DNA of 38,136 nucleotides. Source: Akkermansiaceae bacterium (GTDB lineage: Bacteria > Verrucomicrobiota > Verrucomicrobiia > Verrucomicrobiales > Akkermansiaceae). Numbering within the stretch: position 1 is the first letter of the stretch; each line of letters starts with the position of its first letter. The notes under the pieces are model-generated. The model was not told the origin of the DNA and did no database searches. It saw nothing but the letters and a program-made list of their open reading frames with translations. Positions 6,058 to 37,871 of this stretch are shown in pieces. The translations under genes and the position numbers were made by a program. The stretch spans positions 1 through 38,136 of the forward strand of contig JAQWZU010000043.1 of NCBI GenBank assembly GCA_029253285.1. The letters are read 5' to 3'.

Positions 6058-7443
6058 ATGAGCAAGGAATTTGACCTCGTGGTGATCGGTGGAGGAAGTG
6101 GTGGATACGCTGCCGCAAAAACAGCCATTGGCCGGGGATTGAATGTCGCCGTCGTCGAGGGAGCCAGCGAACTGGGCGGACTCTGCATCCTCCGTGGTTG
6201 CATGCCAACCAAAGCCCTCCTCGAAACATCCAACCGCCTTCGCGCAATTCGCGAGGCCGGTGAATTCGGCATTCAAGTCGGTGAACCTACTCTGGATCTC
6301 GATGCCCTCCGCAACCGTAAAACCAAGCTCGTCGATGGCTTCAAAGAGTATCGTGTAATTGGCCTTGAAAAGGGTGACTTCGAACTTATCCGTGGAAATG
6401 CGGCCTTCACTTCACCTCATACCATTGAGGTGGAAGGACATGGTGAATTCACAGCCAAAACATTCGTCATCGCGACCGGCTCCGACGAGCGAATCCCGCC
6501 CGTTCCCGGACTAAAGGAATCTCCTTTCTGGACCAGCGACGACATTGTCCAAATGCCTTCCGTCCCCCAAAGCGTGATCGTCGTCGGCACCGGTGCCGTC
6601 GGCATGGAGTCCGCCCACCTCTTCCAGGGTCTCGGCTCGGAAGTCTCTATCATTTCACGACGCAAACCTCTCGTCTCATCCGTCGAACCCGCTGTCTCCG
6701 AAGCAATGGAAAAACGCTGCGCCGATCTAGGCATCAATCTAGTCTTCGGCGAAGGTTTACAGGAAGTCGCTCACAACCACTCCGGCTTCACGCTCACTCT
6801 CAGCGAAGGCACTGTTCTCAATTGTGATCAACTCATCATGGCCACCGGCCGTGCTCCGCGCATCACGCAACTCAATCTCGAGAAGGCGGGATTCGAGCCT
6901 GACCTTCGTCGCATTGAAATCAACCAACACAGCCAAACATCAGTCCCCCATATTTTCGCTGCGGGAGACTGCGCCAGCCCGCTCGCGGTCGTACATCTTG
7001 CCGTGATGCAAGGCGAAGCTGCCGGAGCCAATGTCGCATCCCTACTTTCCTTACAACCACTCGAAGCAACCTGGGATTCCCGACTCGATATGTTCGGCAT
7101 CTTCACTGACCCCGAAATCGTACAAGTCGGTCAAACTCTCGATCAAGCCCGCGAAGCCGGCATCGACGCAGTATCCGCCGAGTATCGCTTCGATGATCAG
7201 GGTAAGGGTGAAATTGTCGGTGAGCAACATGGCCTCGTCATGCTCGTCGCAGACAAAGGGTCCGGCGAAATCCTCGGAGCCTCCGGCATGGGACCCCACG
7301 TTATCGACTACGCCCACACCATCACCGTGGCGATTTCACAGCGCCTCACTGTTGCTGATTTCCTCAAAATCCCATCGTACCACCCTACTCTCGGAGAAAT
7401 CTGGACCTACGTGGCCGAGGAACTTGAAGACGAGCTTTCCTAA
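6058..7443 (+). CDS. Dihydrolipoyl dehydrogenase-like FAD/NAD(P) disulfide oxidoreductase
   Basis: A 461-residue class I pyridine nucleotide-disulfide oxidoreductase. The FAD-binding GGGSGG lies at residues 11-16, the redox-active pair C43/C48 in GGLCILRGCMPTK, the NAD(P)-binding GTGAVGMES near 180, the second FAD contact AAGDCASP near 305, and the C-terminal dimerisation domain ends with the active-site HPTLGEIW. These features fit dihydrolipoyl dehydrogenase and its mercuric-reductase-like relatives. There is no 2-oxoacid dehydrogenase E1/E2 gene nearby, so the partner is unknown and I do not assign lpdA. First gene of a packed plus-strand run after a strong terminator. The stop codon at 7441 is followed in the same frame by the exonuclease coding sequence. 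Confidence 0.88.
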   Translation: MSKEFDLVVIGGGSGGYAAAKTAIGRGLNVAVVEGASELGGLCILRGCMPTKALLETSNRLRAIREAGEFGIQVGEPTLDLDALRNRKTKLVDGFKEYRVIGLEKGDFELIRGNAAFTSPHTIEVEGHGEFTAKTFVIATGSDERIPPVPGLKESPFWTSDDIVQMPSVPQSVIVVGTGAVGMESAHLFQGLGSEVSIISRRKPLVSSVEPAVSEAMEKRCADLGINLVFGEGLQEVAHNHSGFTLTLSEGTVLNCDQLIMATGRAPRITQLNLEKAGFEPDLRRIEINQHSQTSVPHIFAAGDCASPLAVVHLAVMQGEAAGANVASLLSLQPLEATWDSRLDMFGIFTDPEIVQVGQTLDQAREAGIDAVSAEYRFDDQGKGEIVGEQHGLVMLVADKGSGEILGASGMGPHVIDYAHTITVAISQRLTVADFLKIPSYHPTLGEIWTYVAEELEDELS

Positions 7444-17533: not shown

Positions 17534-19576
17534 TCACTTCTTCCCGTGATTAGTCCGACTCCGCCCGCCGAAATACTTGTCGCGAATCCACTTTGGCTGC
17601 CAGATGTCCAAAGTCCGCTTGGCATTATCGTAAATTGCCTCCTTGGGCTTGGGATTTTCCACTGAGAGCGGATGACGGTCACTATGGGAATTTCGGTTCT
17701 TTTCCATCATCGCCATCATTTCCGTCAGTTTTTCCGCATGCTCCAGCTTCTCCGCGAGATTGTTCGTTTCGTGAGGATCCTTTTTTAGGTCAAACAGAAG
17801 CCGATGATTGATCAGGGGATAGACATGCAACTTCCATCGTTCATCACGGACCGTGCGTTGGTTATTCTGAAAGGGCAAAAAGACCTCCTCGTGAACTTTC
17901 TCAATCTCCCCACGAATCAACGGCCCCAAATCTTGGGCATCACTCTTCTTCGGAATCGAGGTCCTCGAAAACCCGCACACCGTAGCATTGAGATCATGCA
18001 CATAGGTCATCGCTTCAGTTGACTTCCCTTTCGGAATGCCCGGACCTTTGATGATGAGCGGGCACTTCATGCTCTGCTCGTAGACATTCTGTTTACCAAG
18101 TAAACCATGGCTCCCCATCGCCAAACCATGGTCAGCGGTATAAACGATGTAGGTATTGTCGGCATGGGGAGTTCCTTCGAGAGCCCTCATGATCCGTCCG
18201 ACCTGCTCGTCCAGGTGCGTCACCAGACCATAATACTCGCAGAGTTGATCACTAATGACTTCCTTGGTTCTCGGCCAGGGTCCCAACCCCTCATCACGGC
18301 CTGATGTCGACGCAGGAGCATTTTGAAAGGGATGTTGGGGCAAATAATTCGGTGGGAGCGGCGGACGATTCTTGTAGTAAATCTCGCGATACTTCTCGGG
18401 CGGGTTTCTCGGATCATGCGGAGCCATAAAAGCCACGTAGAGAAAGAAAGGCTTCTCCTCATCCGCCTTTTCAATGAACTCAATCGCGGCATCCGCAAAA
18501 ACGGTGCTCGAGAATCCTCCCGCATCACGTTTCGGCATCAGCTTTCCCCCCTCAAGATCCTGGACCTGAAACGAAGTATGATCCGCCATCCCTCCCATGT
18601 AGATCGCTTTTCCGCTGTGAAACGACTTATCCAAAGTTCCCTTTCCATTGTGCCACTTCCCTACGATGTAGGATTGATACCCACCTTCATTCTCCAGATG
18701 AGCCGGGAGCACCACCGAATCGCCCCAATTTGTCTGAGGCCTCTTTTCCGGCAAACTCATCCAATGACGCCCCGTCATCAACATCGCCCGACTCGCCACA
18801 CAAACGGCTCCACTAAAAGAACCCGCGCAGTAGTTTTGGCGAAAACTCATCCCCTCCGCAGCCAAGGCATCGAGATTTGGAGTTTTGATGTGGGGATTCC
18901 CGTGCGCTCCAATCGTGTCCGCCCGTTGATCATCGGCGAAAAGGAAGATAATATTGGGACGCGACCGCAGCTTGTGATGCAGTTGCGCCACCATTCCCAT
19001 GTAATGATCCATGCGATAATCCACCGCAGACTTCTTCATATGCGCCGCAGACTTCACCGTCTCACCCAACGCCTCGTAATAAAGCCCGAGATACAAATGC
19101 GCGTAGCAAAGTTGATTTCTCAACCTCAGCCCTTCGGCATTCTTCGCCGCTGCCTCAAGCACTGCTTTTTCCGAGCCGGTTCCTCCGAACAAATCATGCA
19201 CCTCCTTCATCGGCACCCGGGAATCTCCCTCGATCGGGATATAATCCTTCCTCGCTTTGTTCACCGATCCACCCGTCCCGCGCACCACACACAGAAAATG
19301 CCACACCGCATTCTCAACATCATGTCCGTTCACTGTCTGATGGCTGACAAACTGCGCCACGCCCTTGTCATACTCACCCGCATAATAAAGGGCCAAACCA
19401 CGCTGCCAATGGTGCGGACCACGACGTGGAACCATGGCAATCTCGCGATCCCAATCAATAATCGCCTCTTTAACCTTTCCCGCAAAAAAATTCTCAGCTC
19501 CCTGTCGATAGAGATCGTCAGCTTGCTGAGCCGAAACGAGACATGTCAGAATTAAGAATGAAATTAGAACCTTCAT
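17534..19576 (-). CDS. Exported TPR-sulfatase fusion protein
   Basis: 680 residues. Signal peptide about 1-17 (ends SAQ). Residues 20-200 are tetratricopeptide-like helical repeats (LYRQGAENFFAGKVKEAI; HHWQRGLALYYAGEYDKG; YAHLYLGLYYEALGE), of the type seen in NlpI-like proteins. From residue 206 the sulfatase domain starts (RPNIIFLFADDQRAD, metal-binding D215/D216). The formylglycine motif is C259-V-A-S-R263 followed by AMLMTGR, a Cys-type site that in active enzymes is oxidised by a formylglycine-generating enzyme. Further active-site segments are GKWH (K307), PHDPRNPP (H387) and TADHGLAMGSHGLLGK. It probably removes sulfate esters from glycans; substrate unknown. The start codon overlaps the stop of an SLC13 relic (ATGA) and lies inside a hairpin. 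Confidence 0.9.
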   Translation of the reverse strand: MKVLISFLILTCLVSAQQADDLYRQGAENFFAGKVKEAIIDWDREIAMVPRRGPHHWQRGLALYYAGEYDKGVAQFVSHQTVNGHDVENAVWHFLCVVRGTGGSVNKARKDYIPIEGDSRVPMKEVHDLFGGTGSEKAVLEAAAKNAEGLRLRNQLCYAHLYLGLYYEALGETVKSAAHMKKSAVDYRMDHYMGMVAQLHHKLRSRPNIIFLFADDQRADTIGAHGNPHIKTPNLDALAAEGMSFRQNYCAGSFSGAVCVASRAMLMTGRHWMSLPEKRPQTNWGDSVVLPAHLENEGGYQSYIVGKWHNGKGTLDKSFHSGKAIYMGGMADHTSFQVQDLEGGKLMPKRDAGGFSSTVFADAAIEFIEKADEEKPFFLYVAFMAPHDPRNPPEKYREIYYKNRPPLPPNYLPQHPFQNAPASTSGRDEGLGPWPRTKEVISDQLCEYYGLVTHLDEQVGRIMRALEGTPHADNTYIVYTADHGLAMGSHGLLGKQNVYEQSMKCPLIIKGPGIPKGKSTEAMTYVHDLNATVCGFSRTSIPKKSDAQDLGPLIRGEIEKVHEEVFLPFQNNQRTVRDERWKLHVYPLINHRLLFDLKKDPHETNNLAEKLEHAEKLTEMMAMMEKNRNSHSDRHPLSVENPKPKEAIYDNAKRTLDIWQPKWIRDKYFGGRSRTNHGKK

Positions 19577-19641
19577 CGCGGCCTACAATAAAGGCTCGCG
19601 ATGAACACTCCGATCAAATTCATTACAATTCCTGCCCTCTC
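19573..19641 (-). pseudogene. Relic of the C-terminus of a second SLC13-type transporter
   Basis: The 69 bases from the LamG stop codon to the sulfatase start, read in the frame right after that stop, encode 22 residues ending in TGA. They include GIVMNLIGV and SLYC. The intact SLC13 transporter at 26238-27629 ends with the same pattern (GIVLNLIGV ... SLYC). By hand alignment without gaps, 14 of 22 residues and about 52 of 69 bases agree. In both places the TGA overlaps the ATG of the next gene within CGATGA. I infer a former second transporter gene whose body was replaced or deleted. An ATG at 19623, 13 bases after GGAGAGGG, could also give a 16-residue leader peptide coupled to the sulfatase. 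Confidence 0.75.
19575..19602 (-). promoter_or_regulatory. Hairpin covering the sulfatase start codon
   Basis: ATCGCG-GCC (19575-19583) pairs with GGC-CGCGAT (19593-19602) with a single bulged base at 19596 and a nine-base loop, giving nine base pairs. In the mRNA the start codon of the sulfatase sits at the end of the 3' arm, so folding could hide it unless ribosomes translate the overlapping relic frame. The structure may be chance, because the sequence also encodes the SLC13 relic. Confidence 0.4.
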
Positions 19642-21834
19642 CTACAAGCCCGGGAGGATACGATAGAAGCGCCTTGGGTTCCCCGGATCAGGCAGAACAA
19701 CTCCGCTAATCACAATGGTGGTTTCGGTTCCGCCGGAAGGAATCGAATCGTCGAGCTCGATCCAGGCCTCTGTTGACAAGTCAACCGTCGTTTCAAGAGC
19801 GTAGGTTTGGCCGGGAATGGAATCGAAAGTCAGCCTGATCCCGCCAGCCGCGTCATCATACTCGATATCCTTGATCGCCAAATCTCCCCCGGGGCCACCG
19901 AGGGCATCATACTTGTCAGAAACCTGCGAGGCATTGAGAACACGGGATCCGTAATAGTTAAAGACCGCGATATCACCGGTGAAGGCCTCGAAGGGGAAAG
20001 TCGTGCTCGTCGGAATATTCGCTCCTTTTCCGAGCTCGGCGAGATCTCCCCCATCCCAGTCGGCGATAATTCCTGTGCTGGAGGTTGGACCGGCAACAAG
20101 TTGGCCATTCACATAAAGAGTAGCCACGCCAGGGGACAGCCCTCCAACATCAGCCGTCGCCACGATGTGAAAGAAATCAGTGGCAAGGCCGATGGCTGAG
20201 AGGTCGGTCGAAATGATAATTCGTTGCGAGGCGTTATCCGCAGATTGAAAGCGGAAATCTAGGATACTGGCAGTGAGGACAATGCCTAATCCCTGACCAT
20301 TTCCGCCGGTATTGAAGAGGGTGTGCGTTCCGGTAAAATCTCCGGGGCGAACTACCATTTCCCAACTCACATCTTCTTTCGTCACGAGATCACCAAGCCC
20401 GTCCTGCCACGAATCGAAGGGATTCGCAGCGAGGTTATAGCCCGGACTATTCACCCACTTACTAATTGAAGAAAAATTACTCGCACCACTCTGAACCGTG
20501 CCACCCGTGTTATTGATGAACGCGATACCCACATTCCCGGTGGTGTTTGTTGTCGGATTCCACTGGGTGAGCACTCCATCCGGCTCTTCAGCCACCTCCC
20601 AACCGAGATCAGGGTTGCTTGCATCAATTACGGTGAGAGTAAATTCCGAAGTTGTCGTCCCAAATGCATTGGTTGCCGCGAAAGTGTAGGTCGTAGTCTC
20701 GGTCGGGGATAATTCAGTCCGATCAAGCCCGGTGACATCATTGCCGCTCATGCTGAGACTTGCCTCACCGAAAACATCCCAGAAAATCGTAGTTGATTGC
20801 CCCTCGAGCAGAGTCTCGGAACCACGATTAATGACCTCGTTGATGAGAGGGGCGGTATCGACCAATACCGTAACTTGAAGTTCCGCCGTGCCTCCCCCGC
20901 GGGTGCCGGTGAGAGTATAAGTCGTGGTAACAGTCGGATTGACCGTTGTTTTTGCCAGCCCTGAAACAGCTCCAACTCCGTTATCGATGGTCAGAGTATC
21001 GTTTGCAGGATCGCTTGCCCAACTGAGTTCTACCGGAGCCCCGCTTGCCACCGCTTCCTCGGAAGCTTCGAATGTCGAAAGAATCGAATCACCAATGGCA
21101 AGCTCCGCAATCGCTGCAGCATCCAGCGCCTCGTCGTAAATACGCACCTCGTCGATTCCGCCCCGCCAATTATGGGTCAATGAGAAATCATCCCCGATAC
21201 GCACATCCGAACCAACGGCAGTATTGATTGCAACACTTTGACTGGCACTCGGCGGGGAATCGATACTTCCAAATTCAGCATCGAGAACACCATCGACATA
21301 GAGCTTGGCATCCTGAATATTTGGAGTGCCGTCATTTTCCCAGGTTACCGCGACATGGTGCCATTCGGCGTCCGTTACCACGGTATTCCCCACAAAGAAA
21401 CCACCACTAGCTTCGACGCGAATCGCACCGGCAGTGCCATTTCCAGTCTGAATTCGAAAGGTCCATTTTTGAGTCGCCGAATTACTCCCCCAAGAAACAA
21501 TACCCATGTCTTGGGCCGTGCTGTTGAGTTCGGTCTTGATCCAAGCGGAAACCGAGCGATCACCGGTTCCAGAAATTCCTTTGTAACCGACGATATTGAT
21601 TTGATCATCGACCCCATCCATCGCAAGGGCGGCCGTGGTTCCCGCAGGAACAGGCGGAAGATCAGTGGTATTCCAAAGTGTGGTTCCCGCAATCGTCCCA
21701 GTCCGACCATTCGCGGTGCTATCTCCAGCGGTAGCTCCCGTTCCTTCTTCAAGAGTCCAGTGGGCGACCAAATCCGCGCGAAGCCCCAGATGAGAGAGAG
21801 CCAGTAGAACGAGAGGAATTTTTGCTAACTTCAT
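19642..21834 (-). CDS. Secreted LamG/concanavalin-like repeat protein
   Basis: 730 residues from ATG 21834 (the frame continues to a GTG at 21861, but the signal peptide begins at MKLAKIPLVLLALSHLGLRA). The layout is: LamG/Con A-like domain about 22-245 (LVAHWTLEEGTGATAGDSTANGRTG at its start; GGIDEVRIYDEAL at its end), two Ig-like/PKD-like modules about 250-325 and 330-403 (TTTYTLTGT, TTTYTFAAT), a second LamG-like domain about 410-640 (MVVRPGDFTGTHTLFNTGG ... DIAVFNYYGSRVL), and a C-terminal beta-rich module ending GNPRRFYRILPGL. Such proteins bind carbohydrate or surface ligands outside the cell; no catalytic motif is visible. It lies between the CotH protein and the sulfatase and probably replaced an SLC13 transporter. 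Confidence 0.8.
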   Translation of the reverse strand: MKLAKIPLVLLALSHLGLRADLVAHWTLEEGTGATAGDSTANGRTGTIAGTTLWNTTDLPPVPAGTTAALAMDGVDDQINIVGYKGISGTGDRSVSAWIKTELNSTAQDMGIVSWGSNSATQKWTFRIQTGNGTAGAIRVEASGGFFVGNTVVTDAEWHHVAVTWENDGTPNIQDAKLYVDGVLDAEFGSIDSPPSASQSVAINTAVGSDVRIGDDFSLTHNWRGGIDEVRIYDEALDAAAIAELAIGDSILSTFEASEEAVASGAPVELSWASDPANDTLTIDNGVGAVSGLAKTTVNPTVTTTYTLTGTRGGGTAELQVTVLVDTAPLINEVINRGSETLLEGQSTTIFWDVFGEASLSMSGNDVTGLDRTELSPTETTTYTFAATNAFGTTTSEFTLTVIDASNPDLGWEVAEEPDGVLTQWNPTTNTTGNVGIAFINNTGGTVQSGASNFSSISKWVNSPGYNLAANPFDSWQDGLGDLVTKEDVSWEMVVRPGDFTGTHTLFNTGGNGQGLGIVLTASILDFRFQSADNASQRIIISTDLSAIGLATDFFHIVATADVGGLSPGVATLYVNGQLVAGPTSSTGIIADWDGGDLAELGKGANIPTSTTFPFEAFTGDIAVFNYYGSRVLNASQVSDKYDALGGPGGDLAIKDIEYDDAAGGIRLTFDSIPGQTYALETTVDLSTEAWIELDDSIPSGGTETTIVISGVVLPDPGNPRRFYRILPGL

Positions 21835-21863
21835 ATTGAATAGGGCTATCAGAGGGTTCACCC

Positions 21864-21909: not shown

Positions 21910-24900
21910 CTATGGCCTCGCCACCAATACGACCCGAGCGAAGCGCAATGGAGGGCTGGCAGCATTTGGGGTCGGAGCCCGCCAATGGTGAATACTCACT
22001 CTATCAACCCGCTCGTCAGACCCCAAAAAAACGGCCGCACCACTCAGCCAGGTTTCCAAATCAGCTGAGAATTCCACCGAGATCTCCGCATCATCCGCGC
22101 CAGTAATCGCGGAAACAGCAGTCACCAGATAGTCATCGACCGCCCCATTGACTTCAAGGCTTTGAATCGAGGCTGAAATTCCCCCAAGTGGATCGGTCAG
22201 GGCATAGGACAGGAGATCATTTGAGCTGGTGCCGGTGAATATCAAGGCATCAGAACCACCCGGACTTCCTCCTAAATCAACACTCGACCGCCAACTCGTG
22301 GCATTGCCCGGATCAGGACTCGAAGAGGGAGCGATCAAGGTCAACGAGTAACCCCCACCATCAGCATTTTGAGACCAGAGATCTCCATCATCATAGCGGA
22401 AACTCTGGATCGGATCTCCATTGGAACCACTCAGCAACAAATCCTCACCACCATTATCCAGCCGTCCCGTGTAGATGCCAGCCACCGGAAGGCCCGCGCC
22501 AAAGGCACTCTCAAAACCAGCAAGATCGGCCACAAGCAACAAACGCTCCCCGGGAGCGAGAACTGCCTCGTCTGGAAACGCGAATGTGATCCCTCTTGCA
22601 AAAACAACACCTGCAAGACTTACCGGCACCGGACCAATATTCATAAGCTCGACATACTCGCTGGTCTCAAACTGGCCCGCCGGATTATAAAAGATCTCGG
22701 ATATCACAAGATTAGCAGCCGAGGCCGGGAGAGCTGTGACAAAGGTCGCTTGGTTGAGCGCACTCCATTCATCGCCATCGAAACTCCGGGCCAAAACCGT
22801 TGTCGCCGAATTGATCGTTACCGCGTCTCCCGGAGAACTCAGGCTGGTCACGTCAATCTGCAAATCCATTCCCATATCGGAACTTCCCACACTGCCATTG
22901 TGAAGCTCGACCGCGATTACATTCGCGCCCTCCACAAAAGCCGATGGTGGAAAATCAAAGACATCAATATTCCCCTCCGCCCCATTACTGTCGCTCAAAG
23001 CAGTCGTGAGATAGTCCACGGGGTCATTCCGCATATTGTCGCGGGCAATTTCGGTGCCATTTAGGTAAACGATGGCTCCTCCATCCGACATCACACGCGC
23101 CCTCGCTTCAGTAATAAGATTAACATTAGTCAGCTCAACTTCTTTTCGAAAGTAAACGGTGAGATTCCTGCCCACATTAATCTCCGGACCTCCAAAGGGA
23201 TGAAAATTGATCGTACCATAACCCAACGGAGCATCTCCGACCGGCCAGTTGTCATCGTTAAAAGAAGGATCCTTCCAGCCACTTCCTTGGTCACTACCAT
23301 CATCAAGGTAACTCCATCCGGGAGCACCTGCGCCGAGAAGAACAAGCTCGTTCTTTGTGCCATCAATCTTGACGGCACTCGGACTAATTGCTCCTCCGGG
23401 CACCCGCGGATCACTCCCATCAACCGTATAGTAAATATCCCCCGCTTCGTTTGTAATCGTCAGCCCAAAGCCATCCGAAACACTCCCGCCGTGCTGACTG
23501 AAAACCGGAGGATCGATATCAGGATAAAGTCCCGCCGCACGAAACTGACTGATACTGATCGGCGTGCGATTTGGAAACCAGGTAGTATACTCACGATTGA
23601 GCCCGTTTTCAAAATCAACCAAAGTTCGAGGGTTTGAATCCAAGTGATCCCCCCACCTCGCGCTCTCGGCCTTCAAGGCAATGCGAATCCCCTCCGCCCG
23701 CGCGTCCCACTGGGCCATCCCGTTTTCAGGAGTCAATGCCCCCCCATTGAACATGTGCTTGAAAGCCCGGTCAGCGAACTGCAAGACATACTCCGGATTG
23801 CTTTTCAGCCATGTATTGACCGAGGTTGGTCGCTGTTCGGCACCTGAGCGAGGATGTGTAATGGAATTGATGTTAAGATTTCCGGTAGTCAGACCATTGA
23901 GACCAGCGCGTTCGGCATCATGGCAAAAGAACATGTACTTCCCCGGAGGATTTAACTGACGCATCGCCCGAACATTGTTCTGGTCCCAATCGGTATTCCC
24001 AGCGTGAAAATTGAGCACAAGATAGTCGATAAAACTATCCAAATCGAGATACTCTTCAACCGTGGCAAGGTCCCCTGCCTCCGCCGCATCGAGTACCGCC
24101 CGCCAACTATCAAGCATCCGCGAACTCACCTCGGCCGGAGTTCCTTTGATCACCTCGATATTATTCCCTCCCACAATCCGAAAACCTTCCCAATCGTCTT
24201 CATCCCCGCCAAATCGTTCCGCAGTCCATTCCTCCTCGATCCGTTCGAATAAATGATGCACCCCAAAGTAGAACCCGTTGAAGTAGACATGCACTTCGTT
24301 TTGAAGCGCCTCAGGATACCCCATTGCGGTGTGGGCATCACGAAACCACTGATCCCGGATATACATCGCGTACTGCCGCACCGCCGAGGTCGGGTGAAAC
24401 CATCCGTTACCGTTCCCTCCTCGCAGGATGATCTGATTAAAGGTATCGGTGGCCGCCCCTTCGCCAAATAACGGAAAATTCAATTTCCCGACACCATATC
24501 GATTCCGAAAAGCGAGACGGAAATTGTGCTTCCCCCGCCCCGGGTTTCTCGAAGCATTCCCGTTCATCAACATTCCGGCATCTAACTGAATGGGTGCACC
24601 ATCCTTAAAATCCATCAATTCCACCGAAACCCGCCGCTCTGAACCGGGACCGGAGTCTTGTGGATTCACTTGAATTCCCGTCTGTTGATTGAACAGATTC
24701 TCAATATCAGTGACAATTGAAACCGTCGGAATATCCCGCAGGGATTCCTTCAATTCCTCACGACTGTATACCGGCCCAACGATCTCAGGATCCATTTCAA
24801 AATCACCGGGGATACTGTTTCCATTGCGTTGCCGCCACGGTAGCGGATAGCCCGGCGGCTGCGCAGGCTGATCCAGCACATCATCCAAAAAGAGATAAGT

Positions 24901-26241
24901 TTGCGTATCAACATTCGATGGCCTGAGCCCGTTCTTAAAAGCAGCCGCACGTAAAACCGTACTCGTGTTAATATTCACCGCCGCCAAGGACGCCGAATCC
25001 GGATCGGAAACCGGAACTTGATTACCGTTCTCGAGTGTCGGCGTACTCCCATCCAACGTATAAATAATGAGAGCTCCCGGCGTTCCGCATTCGATCGTGG
25101 CAATGAATGGCGACTCAAAAAAACCACGATCAACATCGAAGGTCGTATCACTCACAAAATCAACAAACTCGATATCCGCGTTCGGAGTGCCCGGCGTAGG
25201 CGACGCCAAATACCCCCCAATAATCCCTCCGGAAAGGTCGCGCACCTCTCCCTTGAGACGCGGAACCAACAAAACATCCGAACTCTCCTTGATGTCGTTC
25301 AACACCTGAAATGCTAGTAAGTTTTCGCCACCCAATAGCTTCCCCGAAAAGTCGATTTCAAAGCTCTCAATCTCGTCGCCCTCACGAATCTCCCCTCGAT
25401 CCGTCGCAACAGAATCGTAGCTGAGATCCGCAGGTAAATTTGCCGAGGAAACCAATTCCCCGTTAAGATACGCGGCGAATCCATCTTCATAAAATAGATC
25501 AAGCGTCATACTCACCACCTCGGCAGGATTATCGATTTGGAATGGAACCCGCACATACGCACTCCCGGCCTTCCCTTGCATCGCATCTCGCGTGTCTCCA
25601 CCCGCACCAATGAATCCCGGAAAGGAATATCCGTAACCAATTCCAGTTTGCGCGGAATTCCAGCCCCCGTCATCAAAGCCAACTTCCTGCCAAGAATCTC
25701 CTATATCAACGAGGGGAGCAATCCAAGTCCCCGATGACGGCCACGGAACAAATATCTCCGGTTCAGAGATCGCATTCGTTCCCGTCCCGAAAGCGACGCC
25801 ATAAAACTGCCGGGGATATACCGGGCTGAATTGGCTGATGAGCGAACTCCCGTCAGCAGCGATTAGACCCAAATACTCACCACTGCTCGATAAGGAGAAA
25901 TTGGTATGCAGCTCCTCTGCCGGGTCCCGACGATCTTTCCCCGAGGCAAAAACGACAAGATACCCTCCACCCGCAATGGAAACATCGGGCAGCATCCACT
26001 TCGTCAGATTTGAAAAATTATCCGTCAGAAAAAGCCCGTCGGTGGAAACCGGAGAATTTCCCGGATTATGAATCTCAATCCAATCCGATGCCTCACCATC
26101 GCTGTCGGGATACGATCCATCGCTATCCGCCAAAAACTCAGTAAGTCGCAACTGCCCCCCCGCGAAACAAGGAAACAACAAAAGGAAAAGCAACACCTCC
26201 CAAATTCGGTAAATGCGCGATTTTTTCTTCACCAAACTCAT
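21910..26241 (-). CDS. Giant secreted CotH-kinase/lamin-tail protein
   Basis: 1443 residues from ATG 26241, which overlaps the stop of the SLC13 gene (ATGA). Signal segment about 9-28. Domains in order: lamin-tail domain about 30-135 (LRLTEFLAD, SDWIEIHNPG), a galactose-binding-like sandwich 157-335 (FYEDGFAAYLNGE), a chitobiase C-terminal-like module 364-452 (IYTLDGSTPT), a CotH kinase-like domain about 497-867, a second chitobiase-like module 912-957 (IYYTVDGSDPR), a second sandwich 974-1132 (SDGGAIVYLNGTEI) and a second lamin-tail domain 1177-1302 (LVISEIFYNPAG). In the CotH domain the probable active-site segments are FERIEE, NTDWDQNN (D751, N755/N756) and CHDAE (D775). CotH proteins are atypical secreted protein kinases in spore formers; the role of such giant forms in Verrucomicrobia is unknown. 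Confidence 0.82.
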   Translation of the reverse strand: MSLVKKKSRIYRIWEVLLFLLLFPCFAGGQLRLTEFLADSDGSYPDSDGEASDWIEIHNPGNSPVSTDGLFLTDNFSNLTKWMLPDVSIAGGGYLVVFASGKDRRDPAEELHTNFSLSSSGEYLGLIAADGSSLISQFSPVYPRQFYGVAFGTGTNAISEPEIFVPWPSSGTWIAPLVDIGDSWQEVGFDDGGWNSAQTGIGYGYSFPGFIGAGGDTRDAMQGKAGSAYVRVPFQIDNPAEVVSMTLDLFYEDGFAAYLNGELVSSANLPADLSYDSVATDRGEIREGDEIESFEIDFSGKLLGGENLLAFQVLNDIKESSDVLLVPRLKGEVRDLSGGIIGGYLASPTPGTPNADIEFVDFVSDTTFDVDRGFFESPFIATIECGTPGALIIYTLDGSTPTLENGNQVPVSDPDSASLAAVNINTSTVLRAAAFKNGLRPSNVDTQTYLFLDDVLDQPAQPPGYPLPWRQRNGNSIPGDFEMDPEIVGPVYSREELKESLRDIPTVSIVTDIENLFNQQTGIQVNPQDSGPGSERRVSVELMDFKDGAPIQLDAGMLMNGNASRNPGRGKHNFRLAFRNRYGVGKLNFPLFGEGAATDTFNQIILRGGNGNGWFHPTSAVRQYAMYIRDQWFRDAHTAMGYPEALQNEVHVYFNGFYFGVHHLFERIEEEWTAERFGGDEDDWEGFRIVGGNNIEVIKGTPAEVSSRMLDSWRAVLDAAEAGDLATVEEYLDLDSFIDYLVLNFHAGNTDWDQNNVRAMRQLNPPGKYMFFCHDAERAGLNGLTTGNLNINSITHPRSGAEQRPTSVNTWLKSNPEYVLQFADRAFKHMFNGGALTPENGMAQWDARAEGIRIALKAESARWGDHLDSNPRTLVDFENGLNREYTTWFPNRTPISISQFRAAGLYPDIDPPVFSQHGGSVSDGFGLTITNEAGDIYYTVDGSDPRVPGGAISPSAVKIDGTKNELVLLGAGAPGWSYLDDGSDQGSGWKDPSFNDDNWPVGDAPLGYGTINFHPFGGPEINVGRNLTVYFRKEVELTNVNLITEARARVMSDGGAIVYLNGTEIARDNMRNDPVDYLTTALSDSNGAEGNIDVFDFPPSAFVEGANVIAVELHNGSVGSSDMGMDLQIDVTSLSSPGDAVTINSATTVLARSFDGDEWSALNQATFVTALPASAANLVISEIFYNPAGQFETSEYVELMNIGPVPVSLAGVVFARGITFAFPDEAVLAPGERLLLVADLAGFESAFGAGLPVAGIYTGRLDNGGEDLLLSGSNGDPIQSFRYDDGDLWSQNADGGGYSLTLIAPSSSPDPGNATSWRSSVDLGGSPGGSDALIFTGTSSNDLLSYALTDPLGGISASIQSLEVNGAVDDYLVTAVSAITGADDAEISVEFSADLETWLSGAAVFLGSDERVDRVSIHHWRAPTPNAASPPLRFARVVLVARP

Positions 26242-27629
26242 CGCAACCAACAGTAGAGACTTACCACTACCACTCCGATCAAATTCAGCACAATTCCTTC
26301 CCGCACCATCTTCGGCACAGTGAGATAGCCCGACCCGAAGACTACCGCATTCGGAGCCGTTGCCACTGGCAACATAAAGGCACAACTGGCACTCAAAGCC
26401 GCCGGAAGCATCAGGAACTTGGGATCAAGATCATTGGACAAGGCCACCGCCCCCAAAATCGGCATCATCAAAATTGTGCTCGCGGTATTACTCGTCAACT
26501 CGGTGAGGAAGGTCATCAAAAGGCAAATCGTGAAAATCATTCCCAAAATATGCAAGGTCCCCACTCCACTCAACAAGGACGCAGCCTGCCCGCTCAACCC
26601 GGAACTCTTAATCCCCGAAGCCAGACAAATCCCTCCACTAAACAAGAGAAGCATTCCCCACGGGATTTTCTGCGCCGTCTCCCAGTCCAACAAACGCCCC
26701 TTCTCTCCCACTCTCCCTGATCCATCCGGAATCAGGAACAACAACATCACTCCGATGAAGGCCACCGAAGCATCATTGGCTCCCGGAAGGTTCAGCCAGG
26801 TTTTCCATCCCCCAAAAGGCTCCGACCGAGTCATCCACGACAAGGCCGTCAGCCCAAAAACAATCAAGGTCCTCTTCTCCTCCGCACGCCAAGCACCGCT
26901 TTCAGGAAGCTCAATCTTCTCCCCACCCTTGAGACTCCGACTCAACCAAAGCCACATCAAAGGAATCATGATAATCACAATGGGAACACCATAACTCATC
27001 CACTCCATGAAACTCATCGCCTTCCCCGTCAGTTCTTCATACTGCTCAATAAACACCAAATTCGGCGGGGTTCCGATTGGCGACCCCAATCCACCGATAT
27101 TCGCCGCATACGCCACGCCCATCATAAGCGGAGCAGCCAACTTCGCCGAGTCCTTCGACCCACTCAACACCGCCAAAGCAATCGGAAGCAACATCAAGGT
27201 CGTTGCAGTATTCGAAATCCACATACTCAACGTGGCCGAGGCCAACATAAACCCAAGAACCAACCCCTTCCCGCCACTGCCACCACAAGCCCGCACCATT
27301 CCCAGTGCAATGCGACGATGCACTCCGCTCTTTTCCATTCCCTTCGAAAGCAAAAACCCACCCAGCAACAAAAGCACCAAGGGATGCCCGTAACTCTGCG
27401 CCACCGCTGTCTTCGCAGGCAAAACTCCAAGCAAGGGTAACAAGGCAATCGGAACTAACGAAGCAACCGGAATCGGGACTGCTTCCGTCATCCACCACGT
27501 CGCCGTCAACCAGGCAATCCCCAGCGTCACCGCCGCCTGTCGTTCCATCCCGGAAAAATCCGCAATCCCAAAAATCACCAACGCCGACACCGGCGCCAAC
27601 CAACGGGCAATCGTCCTCACTCGCGACAT
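26238..27629 (-). CDS. SLC13/DASS family sodium:anion symporter
   Basis: 463 residues from ATG 27629 (the frame runs to a TTG at 27665). About 11-12 hydrophobic segments. The two family signatures are present: SNTATTLMLLP in the first half and SNTASTILMMP in the second, plus GSPIGTPPN. These Ser-Asn-Thr motifs bind sodium and the anion's carboxylate or sulfate in structurally known members. Substrates in the family are di- and tricarboxylates or sulfate; sulfate would fit the nearby sulfatase, but that is inference. First gene of the minus-strand cluster, with the CotH gene starting inside its stop codon. The 127-base gap upstream presumably holds the promoter. A relic of a related gene lies at 19573-19641. 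Confidence 0.9.
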   Translation of the reverse strand: MSRVRTIARWLAPVSALVIFGIADFSGMERQAAVTLGIAWLTATWWMTEAVPIPVASLVPIALLPLLGVLPAKTAVAQSYGHPLVLLLLGGFLLSKGMEKSGVHRRIALGMVRACGGSGGKGLVLGFMLASATLSMWISNTATTLMLLPIALAVLSGSKDSAKLAAPLMMGVAYAANIGGLGSPIGTPPNLVFIEQYEELTGKAMSFMEWMSYGVPIVIIMIPLMWLWLSRSLKGGEKIELPESGAWRAEEKRTLIVFGLTALSWMTRSEPFGGWKTWLNLPGANDASVAFIGVMLLFLIPDGSGRVGEKGRLLDWETAQKIPWGMLLLFSGGICLASGIKSSGLSGQAASLLSGVGTLHILGMIFTICLLMTFLTELTSNTASTILMMPILGAVALSNDLDPKFLMLPAALSASCAFMLPVATAPNAVVFGSGYLTVPKMVREGIVLNLIGVVVVSLYCWLR

Positions 27630-33620: not shown

Positions 33621-36600
33621 TTAACGCACTGAGATTTTCAGCCGGAGGAAGTAGCGGGTCTCTCCGGCGATCGGAGTAGCGAGGCGATAAACGCCCGGAG
33701 ACACCTCGACCCCATCTTCGTCCACCCAGGCCTCCAGTTCTGTTGATGACTGAATCTGAAAATCAACATCCGTGGCATCGACGTTTTGGTCAAATTGCAG
33801 GGTCAAATAATCCGCACCTTCGAAATCCACGCTTCCGGGAACGAGAGCATTGTAATTGGGTACATTCGGCGATGTTCCGAGGGCATACTCAACCAAAGCC
33901 GCAAGACCATCAAGATCGGCGTCTTCGTCATCGCTCGTCACCCCGTTCGCGACCTTCCAGATCGCTAATCCGGACTCAGCAATCGTATCGGCAACACCTG
34001 GCCCTCCACCAACTGTTGTATGAGCACCCCAACTTTCTGGTAGTGAATGATCAGGGACACTCTCAGCATTTCGCAACACCAGGGATGCTCCATTATCATC
34101 AGCGGCAGCCGGCCAAGGCGAATTATCGCCGAAGTCCAACTCGTGCAAGACACCCACCCCCTCAAGATCGAGCGAAAGTCGCTCTCCACCGTTATTGAGT
34201 TTTCCGAAATACTCACCGGCAATCGCAACGCCCTCGCCATAACGCGCGGCGAAAGCCTCGACATCCTGAACAAGAACCGCGCGTGCTCCGGGATCAAGCA
34301 GACTCTCGGGACCAAAGGCAAATGACACTCCATCAGAAAAGTGAACTCCCTCGAGCTCAAGCGGCTGGGTTCCCACATTCAGAAGTTCGATAAATTCATA
34401 ATCGTCCCGATCAGTGGACACCGCAATCTCCGCCGCACTTGTCGGTTCGGCCGGATGATAGTGAATCTCAGAGATGACCAACTTGTCAGCCGAAGCCGGA
34501 ATCGAGTTGATACTGAAGAAAGTCGAGGTCAACGCACTCCACTCACTCGACCCCGAGTTATAGGCCCGCGCCCTAAACTGCGAGGCCGCATTGAGAGCGA
34601 CCGGTATAGTCCGGTTGGTGCCGTTGGTTGCTTCGATCTCACCCCGAAGGCGCAGGTCAAAACTGACATCCGAACTCGTGGCACTCTGATTGTGGACCTC
34701 AACCGCAATGACATTCTCTCCCGGGATGAAATTGGCGGTAGATAATTCGTAGCGGAAAAAAGCATTTTCATCTGGCGTGCTACTGGTCGCATAGACGTCG
34801 TAGGCCGCATTTTCCGGTAGATTCGTCGTGCGAACGACCTCGACTCCATTCACGTAGACCGCCGCTCCGTCGTCGTAGAGAAGGTCCAAATCGAATCGAG
34901 AGAAAGAACTCGGATTGGGGATTACAACTTTATGTCGGAAATAGGACGTTGCATTTCGCTGAGGCCCGGGTGTTTCCAGATCGACATCTACGGAACCGAT
35001 TAGCTGCCCCTCATCACCCTCGTTATAGCCAAGCTCCGATGGGCCTTCGGCCCAAGCGGCATCATTAAACCCACTGGCATACCAGGCCGTTCCCTGATTA
35101 GAGCCGTCATCGAGATACTTCCATAGAGCCCCTGTCAGAACGAAATCTTCCGGGGTTGGCACTCCGTCATCAAAAGGAGCGAGCACCGCATCAGGGCTGA
35201 TCGCTCCACCGGGAAGACGCGGATCACTCCCGTCGAGAGTGTAATAAATGGCAAAGGCATCCGTGGTCATGGTCACGCCGGCACCCGGAGCTACCGATCC
35301 CCCGTGCTGGGAAAGCACGGGCGCCACAATATTCGGATACATGTTGGCGGACTTCAGGAGGCCCAGTCGACTCAACGAAAGATTCGGAAAGTGGTTATTG
35401 ACCAAATTATTTTGATACGCGAGCCACTGCGATGGAGTCCGGTTGGGGGTCCCATTGACGAATTTCCATCGCGCAGCTTCGGCGATGTAACTCAAACTAC
35501 ATTCATCAATACGATGCTGTAATCGAGCGATATTCCTCTCCGCAGTCAGAGCACCATCATTAAAGAAGCGCTTATGAATCTGATCCGCCAGAACGATTTT
35601 ATAATCCGGATCTCCCTCGCTGCGAAACTCGGTCAGTGCACTCAAGGGGCCGTTGTGAGTCACGTTGTGGTTTCCATTGGGAGTCCGCAAATAGCCATCG
35701 GCATCCTTGACGTAAAACTTAAAGCCCTCCCCATTTTCAAGAGAACCCGCTGCCCGGAATTCGCTCTCGGAATTCCCCATCGTCCATAACAACATGAAGT
35801 CGATGAGATTGGGAACATCGAGCATATCCTTGACCGAACCATAAGGACTCGCACCACCCAGAAGATTCCGCATCGTCACCCAATTAGTCAGGTCACCATC
35901 TTGAAGTTGTTGCAGACCGGGGTTACCGAATTCCGACCCCGAATTATTGGCATTAATGGTATCATATTCCTCCTCCTTCCCCGGAAGATAATCCGCGGAA
36001 AATGCCGCATCCCATCGTTCGCGTAGATGATACTGCCCGCGATATTTTCCGTTAAAATACAAATGTACGAAGCGCCCGTGGGTTGAAAGATTTCCCATAT
36101 CAAGCATCGCGTCATCAGTATAGCGGTTCGAAAGGTAAGCTCCCCGGTTGATCATATCGTGATTCCCCGCTCGCAAATCAAGTGCATCGAAATCTTCAGT
36201 CGGAGGAATCTCGTAGCCTGTCTCTTCGAACAATGGATATTCGAGGCGGCTGGGACCATACTCGGAGCGAAAATGCAGACGAATACTACGTTTTTGAAAA
36301 TTGGTAAAATAAGATCCGTAACGCACCACACCCGCATCGACCTGTTTTGCGCCCGTTTCAAAATTGAGAAGTTCGACCGAAACGGGGAGCTCGGTTCGAT
36401 CAATATCCGAGCCATCAAAGGTCAATGAAACCGTGGGGATAGAGCCAAGCGCATCAATCATCTGCGGTCCATAAACCGGATCCTGCGTGATCGAAGTCGC
36501 CATCTCCGGTTGCGTCACCACGTCAGCCCTGAAGATATAGGAGTGCGTATCGACATTTGTTGAGAGAAAGCCTTCCCGATAGGCCATCGCCCGAATCACC

Positions 36601-37871
36601 GTGGTCTCATTAACAGTAATCGGCCCGGCGTAAACCGTGCCTTCGGTCTCGCTCGGCGGCGTGCCATTGGTGGTATAGCGAATAATGGCTTCAGGAGTCT
36701 CCGTGGTGATAGCCAGACTAAAGGGAGCATCGTGAAGCCCCCGGTCAACACTGAATTTGGTATCCTCGGTAATACCATCAACAAACAAGCTATTTGCTTC
36801 ATCTGGAGTGGGTACTGGGAAAAAGCCCCTTGAGGAACCATTGAGATCCACCCGCATTGCCGTCAATCGGGGTGAAAACAACAAGTCGGAACTCCCCGTT
36901 GATTGATTCAAAAGATGGATCGCCAAAATGTTCTCGCCTTGAACCAAACTTCCAACCGTAAGCGGATAACCACTCAAGGCAACCGCGTCGGTCTCATTGC
37001 GACCGCTTTGAGGATCAGAACGGGAATTCCATAGAAGAGAATCGGGAGCACGTTCGCGGTGAATTTCCACTCCATTTAAATAGGCCACAAATCCATCCTC
37101 CCAGCGCGCGCTGAGAACGAGATCCTGCAGCCCCGCAGGTGACGGAACGTCGAAAGGAATCCTGACAAACGCAGTGGCGTTCGCTCCCGACATTTCAGCC
37201 TTCAACTCTGCAGCCCCCGTTCCTAAAAATTGCTCGTAGCTTCCCCCGAAAGAATCAAATCCAATCCCGGTCGTCGCGGCAATCCAACCGGAGTCATCAT
37301 GTCCGATATCTTCCCAACCGGAAATCTCGTTGGTCGGCACATGAACACGTGCAACCTCCCCCTCTTCCACGAGAACTTCAGCAGTCGGCACTCCAAATCC
37401 GACACCATAGGAAATATCCTCAAACTGCTTGGGATAGTTTACAAATTCACTGCTGACCGTCACACCGTCCGGCTGCACAAGCGCCAAGTATCCGCCCTCC
37501 CCGGACTGCAATTGAAAATTTGTATGAAGCTCATTCGCAGGGTCGGAAAGATCGTCCCCTGAAGCGAAAACCAAAAGATACTCTCCCACATCCAAATTCA
37601 CCGCAGGAATCCGCCACTTGGTTAAATTTTCCGGATCATCGGTCAAAAACCAGCCATCAAGATCTCCCGCCCCATTCGTCGAATTCCAAAGCTCAATCCA
37701 ATCCGAACGCTTGCCATTACTGTCTTCAATCCCCTTTCCGTTACTGGCCAAAAACTCGGTAATTTTCGCCGAGGACAGAGTCTCCCCGGATGCCGTGAGG
37801 ACAGGCATCAGGATGGAAACTAAGCTGCATGAGAGAACGTTGAGCAGAGACAAGAGACCAACTTTTTTCAT
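33621..37871 (-). CDS. Second giant secreted CotH-like/lamin-tail protein
   Basis: 1416 residues, paralogous to the protein at 21910-26241 with the same domain order. Signal peptide 1-29. Lamin-tail about 33-145 (KITEFLASNG, SDWIELWNS), galactose-binding-like sandwich 165-340, chitobiase-like module 370-447 (IRYTTNGTPP), CotH-like domain about 475-800, chitobiase-like module 850-897 (IYYTLDGSDPR), sandwich 912-1078 (YDDGAAVYVNGVEV), lamin-tail 1129-1268, then a calcium-loop-like DDEDADLDGLAALVEYALG at 1314-1332 and a C-terminal beta module. Where the other paralogue has NTDWDQNN, this one has NSESEFRA (700-707), so the catalytic-loop residues are changed, while KDAD (722-725) is retained. It may be an inactive CotH fold. 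GAGG precedes the ATG by one base. Confidence 0.82.
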   Translation of the reverse strand: MKKVGLLSLLNVLSCSLVSILMPVLTASGETLSSAKITEFLASNGKGIEDSNGKRSDWIELWNSTNGAGDLDGWFLTDDPENLTKWRIPAVNLDVGEYLLVFASGDDLSDPANELHTNFQLQSGEGGYLALVQPDGVTVSSEFVNYPKQFEDISYGVGFGVPTAEVLVEEGEVARVHVPTNEISGWEDIGHDDSGWIAATTGIGFDSFGGSYEQFLGTGAAELKAEMSGANATAFVRIPFDVPSPAGLQDLVLSARWEDGFVAYLNGVEIHRERAPDSLLWNSRSDPQSGRNETDAVALSGYPLTVGSLVQGENILAIHLLNQSTGSSDLLFSPRLTAMRVDLNGSSRGFFPVPTPDEANSLFVDGITEDTKFSVDRGLHDAPFSLAITTETPEAIIRYTTNGTPPSETEGTVYAGPITVNETTVIRAMAYREGFLSTNVDTHSYIFRADVVTQPEMATSITQDPVYGPQMIDALGSIPTVSLTFDGSDIDRTELPVSVELLNFETGAKQVDAGVVRYGSYFTNFQKRSIRLHFRSEYGPSRLEYPLFEETGYEIPPTEDFDALDLRAGNHDMINRGAYLSNRYTDDAMLDMGNLSTHGRFVHLYFNGKYRGQYHLRERWDAAFSADYLPGKEEEYDTINANNSGSEFGNPGLQQLQDGDLTNWVTMRNLLGGASPYGSVKDMLDVPNLIDFMLLWTMGNSESEFRAAGSLENGEGFKFYVKDADGYLRTPNGNHNVTHNGPLSALTEFRSEGDPDYKIVLADQIHKRFFNDGALTAERNIARLQHRIDECSLSYIAEAARWKFVNGTPNRTPSQWLAYQNNLVNNHFPNLSLSRLGLLKSANMYPNIVAPVLSQHGGSVAPGAGVTMTTDAFAIYYTLDGSDPRLPGGAISPDAVLAPFDDGVPTPEDFVLTGALWKYLDDGSNQGTAWYASGFNDAAWAEGPSELGYNEGDEGQLIGSVDVDLETPGPQRNATSYFRHKVVIPNPSSFSRFDLDLLYDDGAAVYVNGVEVVRTTNLPENAAYDVYATSSTPDENAFFRYELSTANFIPGENVIAVEVHNQSATSSDVSFDLRLRGEIEATNGTNRTIPVALNAASQFRARAYNSGSSEWSALTSTFFSINSIPASADKLVISEIHYHPAEPTSAAEIAVSTDRDDYEFIELLNVGTQPLELEGVHFSDGVSFAFGPESLLDPGARAVLVQDVEAFAARYGEGVAIAGEYFGKLNNGGERLSLDLEGVGVLHELDFGDNSPWPAAADDNGASLVLRNAESVPDHSLPESWGAHTTVGGGPGVADTIAESGLAIWKVANGVTSDDEDADLDGLAALVEYALGTSPNVPNYNALVPGSVDFEGADYLTLQFDQNVDATDVDFQIQSSTELEAWVDEDGVEVSPGVYRLATPIAGETRYFLRLKISVR

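Follow-up and report, generated by a model that had tools for sequence, protein, structure and literature searches.

The stretch that joins the LamG gene to the sulfatase gene in the window (all 38,136 nucleotides of contig JAQWZU010000043.1, from the Akkermansiaceae assembly GCA_029253285.1) is, to judge by alignment, virtually certain to be homologous to the 3′ end of an SLC13-type transporter gene on the far side of LamG and its upstream neighbour. Sequence comparison indicates that it is very probably a lineage-specific duplicate of the resident SLC13 end, formed before the three species that carry it split. The new element in it is a predicted hairpin over the sulfatase start codon, which the SLC13 copy lacks. 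The best explanation of the whole, in which an SLC13 end was duplicated, a gene pair inserted, the copy rewritten into a hairpin and the sulfatase coupled, has a chance that falls just short of even.

The spacer and the end of the SLC13 gene

Along the minus strand, Pfam matches give the order PurK, pseudouridine synthase ("RsuA" in the scripts), Na_sulph_symp, CotH/lamin-tail, LamG, sulfatase, SSS, DnaA and DnaN. The Na_sulph_symp gene (PF00939, 26238..27665) is intact and keeps here the name SLC13, given to it in an earlier note on this DNA. It is followed, on the same strand, by a CotH/lamin-tail-domain gene (CotH/LTD, a Pfam assignment; 21910..26241), the first of the pair proposed to have been inserted, by the LamG gene (Laminin_G_3, 19642..21861) and by the sulfatase gene (Sulfatase PF00884 and SGSH_C PF16347, 17534..19576). 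The sulfatase has an N-terminal extension, for which the earlier label TPR finds no Pfam TPR match at E <= 0.001. The next gene is that of an SSS symporter (SSF PF00474, 15868..17496).

The spacer (19573..19641, minus strand) corresponds to the last 69 bases of SLC13, that is, 22 codons and the stop (26238..26306, minus strand). Read as 19641-19573 against 26306-26238, the two align without gaps and agree at 52 of the 69 bases and in 14 of the 22 residues, which bears out the hand count of the earlier note (14 residues, about 52 of 69 bases). Both copies terminate in GCGATGA, so the CGATGA stop/start overlap described there at both ends is also borne out; the ATG starts the sulfatase (19576) in the spacer and CotH/LTD (26241) in the SLC13 copy, each of which has the terminal ATGA in common with its downstream gene. 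With ATGA set aside, 48 of 65 bases are identical. Shuffled spacers had been named as a check, and this count beats the best of 5000 dinucleotide shuffles compared with the whole SLC13 gene (37; mean 30.0, sd 1.4). When the 4.3-Mb genome is searched with the spacer, only the spacer itself and the SLC13 end (2.1e-7) fall below E = 0.1, the remaining seven of the nine matches listed having E >= 0.7. The likeness ends at the LamG stop codon, which is in the same frame, 65 nt upstream of the ATG of the sulfatase.

The spacer is closest to the SLC13 of its own genome. Against its 52 of 69 identities there, SLC13 ends of 14 other genomes reach 34 to 44 of 69 at the best offset, a comparison that leaves out the cut or fragmented SLC13 genes of G017, G018, G019 and G025; the G019 end, compared separately, gives 37 of 69. 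In a tree of 19 sequences and 65 sites, the three spacers and two SLC13 ends (those of the window's genome, G000, and of G002) are split from the rest with an ultrafast bootstrap of 91, and the three spacers stand apart from all SLC13 sequences with a value of 100. With so few sites, the tree is modest evidence for duplication in this lineage.

Among the 27 genus genomes that form the comparison set, the spacer is found at E <= 0.01 in three, G000, G002 and G005. It is thus present in two relatives and has no match at this threshold in the others. In G002 and G005 it lies at the same site, with matching gene order as far as the contigs extend. Since it is common to separate assemblies, an assembly error is unlikely. 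In other genus genomes that hold both genes, SLC13 and the long sulfatase are on different contigs, and elsewhere in the genus each has other neighbours in the stretches fetched. Sulfatase loci from named genomes, many of them short and few from the genus, include SLC13 in 1 of 39 cases (G002). In a fourth close relative, G017, the contigs break on both sides of the spacer site, and it was dropped as a candidate empty site: of its two contigs (L076 and L150), one stops within SLC13, where about 50 terminal bases are unrelated, and the other at the 3′ end of the sulfatase gene. An empty SLC13-sulfatase site was not found among the genomes examined.

The predicted hairpin and possible coupling

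The copy does not change in the manner of a protein-coding sequence. Between G000 and G002 the spacer differs at 6 of 69 bases, which change six codons, five of them nonsynonymously. In SLC13 minus its last 23 codons the nonsynonymous share is 10 of 64 changed codons (Fisher p 0.0013), and in those last 23 codons it is 1 of 3. Because the codon changes in the spacer are mostly nonsynonymous, the stretch is no longer maintained as protein, and a conserved spacer peptide was rejected on these comparisons. The divergence of the spacer falls inside the range spanned by other gaps (12/91, 6/48, 9/183, 1/37, 0/41 and 0/12). Two further measures carry little weight. The 17 differences between spacer and SLC13 fall 10 at codon positions 1-2 and 7 at position 3, which, with pooled orthologue pairs as the reference (p 0.22), is not decisive as a test of past coding constraint, and the open frame is weak evidence given that it stays open in 45-60% of no-selection simulations.

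Differences between the spacer and SLC13 are concentrated in one short block. Mismatches number 5 of 36 at positions 0-35 and 6 of 9 at positions 36-44, the latter against 11 of 56 elsewhere (Fisher p 0.007, uncorrected, with the block chosen post hoc). This block reads TTCATCGCG in G000 and TTCATCGGG in G002. The G000 form matches exactly the reverse complement of CGCGATGAA, a stretch that includes the ATG of the sulfatase, and the block forms the 5′ arm of an inverted repeat, or predicted hairpin, that encloses the start codon (19572..19605, minus strand; 9 bp, a 1-nt bulge, 4 bp and a 7-nt loop). At positions 36, 39 and 43 the SLC13 outgroups keep the SLC13 base (13 or 14 of 14), so the SLC13 state is taken to be the old one there; at 38, 41 and 44 the base varies among them. 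Probably, a single template switch wrote the block as the reverse complement of the start region, with point changes added. Template switching is known to make hairpins (PMC8794818), and as there, a neighbouring stretch would have been copied as its reverse complement, giving a stem in one step. The account in that source concerns RNA genes, whereas the present stem covers a start codon and the proposed event comes from one clade.

For the RNA around the sulfatase start, the predicted folding energy is -41.6 kcal/mol (z -3.4), and none of 200 shuffles does as well. For the 46-nt hairpin core, z is -5.8 in G000, -6.3 in G005 and -2.5 in G002, and for the 121-nt stretch of G002 it is -1.6 (12 of 200 shuffles as good). 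The SLC13 copy has no such hairpin, and the SLC13-CotH junctions of 121 nt give -0.5 and -1.0; when the 69-nt spacer of G000 is folded by itself, without the sulfatase, z is -1.6 (15 of 200). In all three species the sulfatase AUG has a predicted probability of 0.00045 of being unpaired, lower than at any other of 134 start regions (median 0.48), a control set made of the ATG starts of longest ORFs of at least 200 amino acids, some of them misplaced; the next lowest, 0.0009, belongs to a G016 gene. In the same set z is -3.4 or lower in four regions, two being other genes. At seven orthologous sulfatase starts elsewhere the value is 0.01 to 0.45, the G004 orthologue standing at 0.01. Simulations that put 17 random substitutions into the SLC13 end, fused to the start of the sulfatase gene, attain the observed energy once in 4000 runs and give a perfect arm of at least 9 over the ATG in 5 of 20000. 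All hairpin statistics are post hoc, computed once the hairpin was known, and their p-values are uncorrected.

No compensatory changes occur in the stem among the three species. G002 breaks two of the pairs, with the AUG still covered in the prediction. All 10 stem differences now pair, but the stem was drawn from the very sequence in question; the argument is circular and was set aside as evidence. The hairpin was also considered as a repeated genomic element, a reading that was dropped: every one of the 27 genus genomes has the pattern with 7-bp arms, and of the matches listed only the G000, G002 and G005 sulfatase sites share the loop of the hairpin. Within the control set, the start region of the gene at 6058-7443 also folds unusually well (z -4.9, AUG unpaired 0.05).

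A candidate mini-ORF of 16 codons (19573..19623, minus strand) begins with ATG inside the spacer, and its TGA overlaps the sulfatase ATG. The start is ATG in G000 and G005 and would be a GTG one codon earlier in G002. Directly after the LamG stop is a purine stretch resembling a Shine-Dalgarno (SD) site (19630..19641, minus strand). This site and the mini-ORF start are present in all three species, as is the ATGA overlap. The SD-like site is equalled by 139 of 3000 shuffles in G000 and 9 of 3000 in G002, and the G000 site at 19 of 292 ordinary gene ends. Similar in-frame start/SD candidates exist in the SLC13 copy (-5.4 and -6.1 kcal/mol), so that the one in the spacer may simply be inherited. 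The SD-like stretch is also predicted to pair with CCUCCC just before the LamG stop (19635-19657), and ribosomes that end translation of LamG might thus expose it.

With these parts, a translational-coupling device is plausible as a model. The mRNA would fold over the sulfatase AUG. A ribosome would start at the purine-rich site after the LamG stop, read 16-17 codons and end on the overlapping UGA; in doing so it would pass the 5′ arm, stop in the 3′ arm and open the hairpin, and it could then restart on the sulfatase gene. Sulfatase output would depend in this way on upstream translation. With 65 nt between the LamG stop and the sulfatase ATG, direct restart by the LamG ribosome is unlikely, and the mini-ORF would bridge the gap. 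Folding predictions leave a functional coupling hairpin possible, with the balance tilting somewhat against it. It is doubtful that the full proposal holds, namely that a transporter scrap was duplicated by an insertion and converted by template switching into an RNA lock on the sulfatase start that yields only to ribosomes translating the scrap.

The spacer may instead be an inert scar: a duplicated SLC13 end that has no function and is decaying, with a hairpin that arose as a tolerated by-product of template switching. The predominance of nonsynonymous changes (five of six codons), a divergence like that of other gaps and the two broken pairs in G002 all fit such decay. However, a buried start should be costly, yet the AUG is predicted to be buried in all three species, and the SD-like site and start are retained in each, which makes an inert scar rather unlikely. 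The earlier note had suggested selection on translation initiation; the hairpin enclosing the AUG lends this some support, while the freely changing peptide does not.

The proposed coupling resembles several known systems in part. In ATGA gene pairs that couple by termination and reinitiation, the final 15 nt of the first gene were enough for coupling in two E. coli pairs, and one of these pairs tolerated 14-15 nt (PMC6728339, PMC10666635). The 4-nt overlap is the same here, but unlike in the pairs those sources describe, the upstream piece is severed from its gene and needs a start of its own. The iraD leader, in which translation is coupled to a short upstream ORF (PMC5574718), is similar in that the stop of the short ORF overlaps the next start and RNA structure hides the downstream initiation region. 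As described in that source, iraD has a single-gene leader, a hidden SD and control by CsrA, whereas the spacer lies inside a string of genes and it is the AUG that is predicted to be hidden. If the coupling model is true, a gene separated from its coupled upstream neighbour by an insertion can retain a portable piece of that neighbour, sufficient to maintain the coupling, and such a piece can turn into a tighter lock within one genus. Debris of operon rearrangement would then have been made into a new control element. If the scar part alone is true, the spacer is a record of how a gene cluster was assembled.

Origin of the duplicate

An insertion is the likely source of the two SLC13 ends, as far as sequence and gene layout can tell. 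In the ancestor of the clade, SLC13 would have run directly into the sulfatase gene through an ATGA overlap. The CotH/LTD-LamG pair would then have entered this junction, leaving the last ~69 SLC13 bases on both sides, and the downstream copy would have ceased to code for transporter yet remained joined to the sulfatase start. The present layout has the same gene end (52 of 69 bases) flanking CotH/LTD and LamG; these two genes make up the insert, which contains no recombinase gene. All seven orthologous sulfatase starts, from six genomes and chosen by the author among in-frame ATGs, begin with ATGA (three of the seven with ATGAA), which is expected if SLC13 once ran into the native sulfatase start. 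In the stretches examined, no SLC13 was seen to run directly into a sulfatase.

CotH/LTD and LamG are also adjacent in five further genus genomes (G003, G007, G014, G021 and G023), away from SLC13 and sulfatase. None of the five has a spacer match at E <= 0.01, and no spacer is seen by eye in the flanks of the pair, the CotH side being covered for G003, G021 and G023 only. Because the two genes occur together elsewhere without the spacer and beside other neighbours, the pair behaves as a unit that entered the site. The earlier suggestion that a LamG gene took the place of a transporter is accordingly not needed, LamG being half of a pair in those five genomes.

A different origin, favoured in the earlier note, is that the spacer is the relic of a second complete SLC13 that stood before the sulfatase gene and was deleted save for its end. 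Such a loss would leave an identical-looking end product, and a recent SLC13 duplicate would likewise group with the SLC13 of its own genome. However, an extra whole gene and its loss are required, and no more of the lost gene is found, the likeness ending at the LamG stop. G000 has a single SLC13 of this type and one distant partial match (28%), and no second copy lies beside a sulfatase in the stretches fetched. The relic is therefore improbable, and insertion is favoured, since it takes one event with a known gene pair, whereas for the relic a second transporter must have existed and been almost wholly lost. Of the earlier account of origin, derivation from the SLC13 3′ end with a retained stop/start overlap stands; the second whole transporter is not supported, the spacer grouping with the resident SLC13, of which G000 has one.

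The insertion scenario has a partial precedent in E. coli K-12, where prophage e14, inserted at icd, has left the icd' pseudogene, a 163-bp duplicate of the gene end (PMC6379469). There, as proposed here, the insert entered a protein-coding gene at its 3′ end, and a second copy of that end lies beyond it. Unlike the site-specific prophage of that source, the present insert consists of two genes without a recombinase, and the copy abuts the start of the next gene. A literature search on remnants of inserted genes in operons found nothing on point.

Remaining alternatives and minor observations

Another reading of the hairpin is that it terminates or attenuates transcription in the gap between LamG and sulfatase. 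A pattern scan does list a terminator-like site here, with a stem and loop unlike those of the predicted hairpin. Against this reading, the stem sits on the sulfatase start, the T run of the tail (TAATTTCATT) is poor, and two such sites occur in 701 bases where 0.7 are expected, so that a terminator is highly improbable. The chance that the spacer merely resembles the SLC13 end by coincidence, which its length of 69 bases might favour, is negligible and was rejected on the dinucleotide shuffles and the genome-wide E of 2.1e-7, with the in-register match, the identical overlap and the presence in three species also against it.

Several features of the neighbouring genes were observed along the way. 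The SSS-DnaA-DnaN order was seen in 12 of 13 dnaA stretches fetched from the genus, the contig of the thirteenth (G012) ending just past dnaA; the SSS protein beside dnaA is only 49% identical in G009 and G025. In G008 (L091:1-1838), SLC13 is followed by the pseudouridine synthase, an order that is reversed in the window. A second CotH/LTD protein is encoded at 33621-37871 of the window and shares 34% identity with that of 21910-26241. LamG probably starts later than the listed GTG (21861); a signal-peptide-like stretch follows an in-frame ATG near 21834. The N-terminal ~206 residues of the sulfatase correspond to a separate ORF of about 215 amino acids in G006 (L080:6081-6728) and are matched alone in G007 and G010, and many relatives match the protein from residue ~204 onward only. 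The sulfatase of the window thus looks like a fusion.
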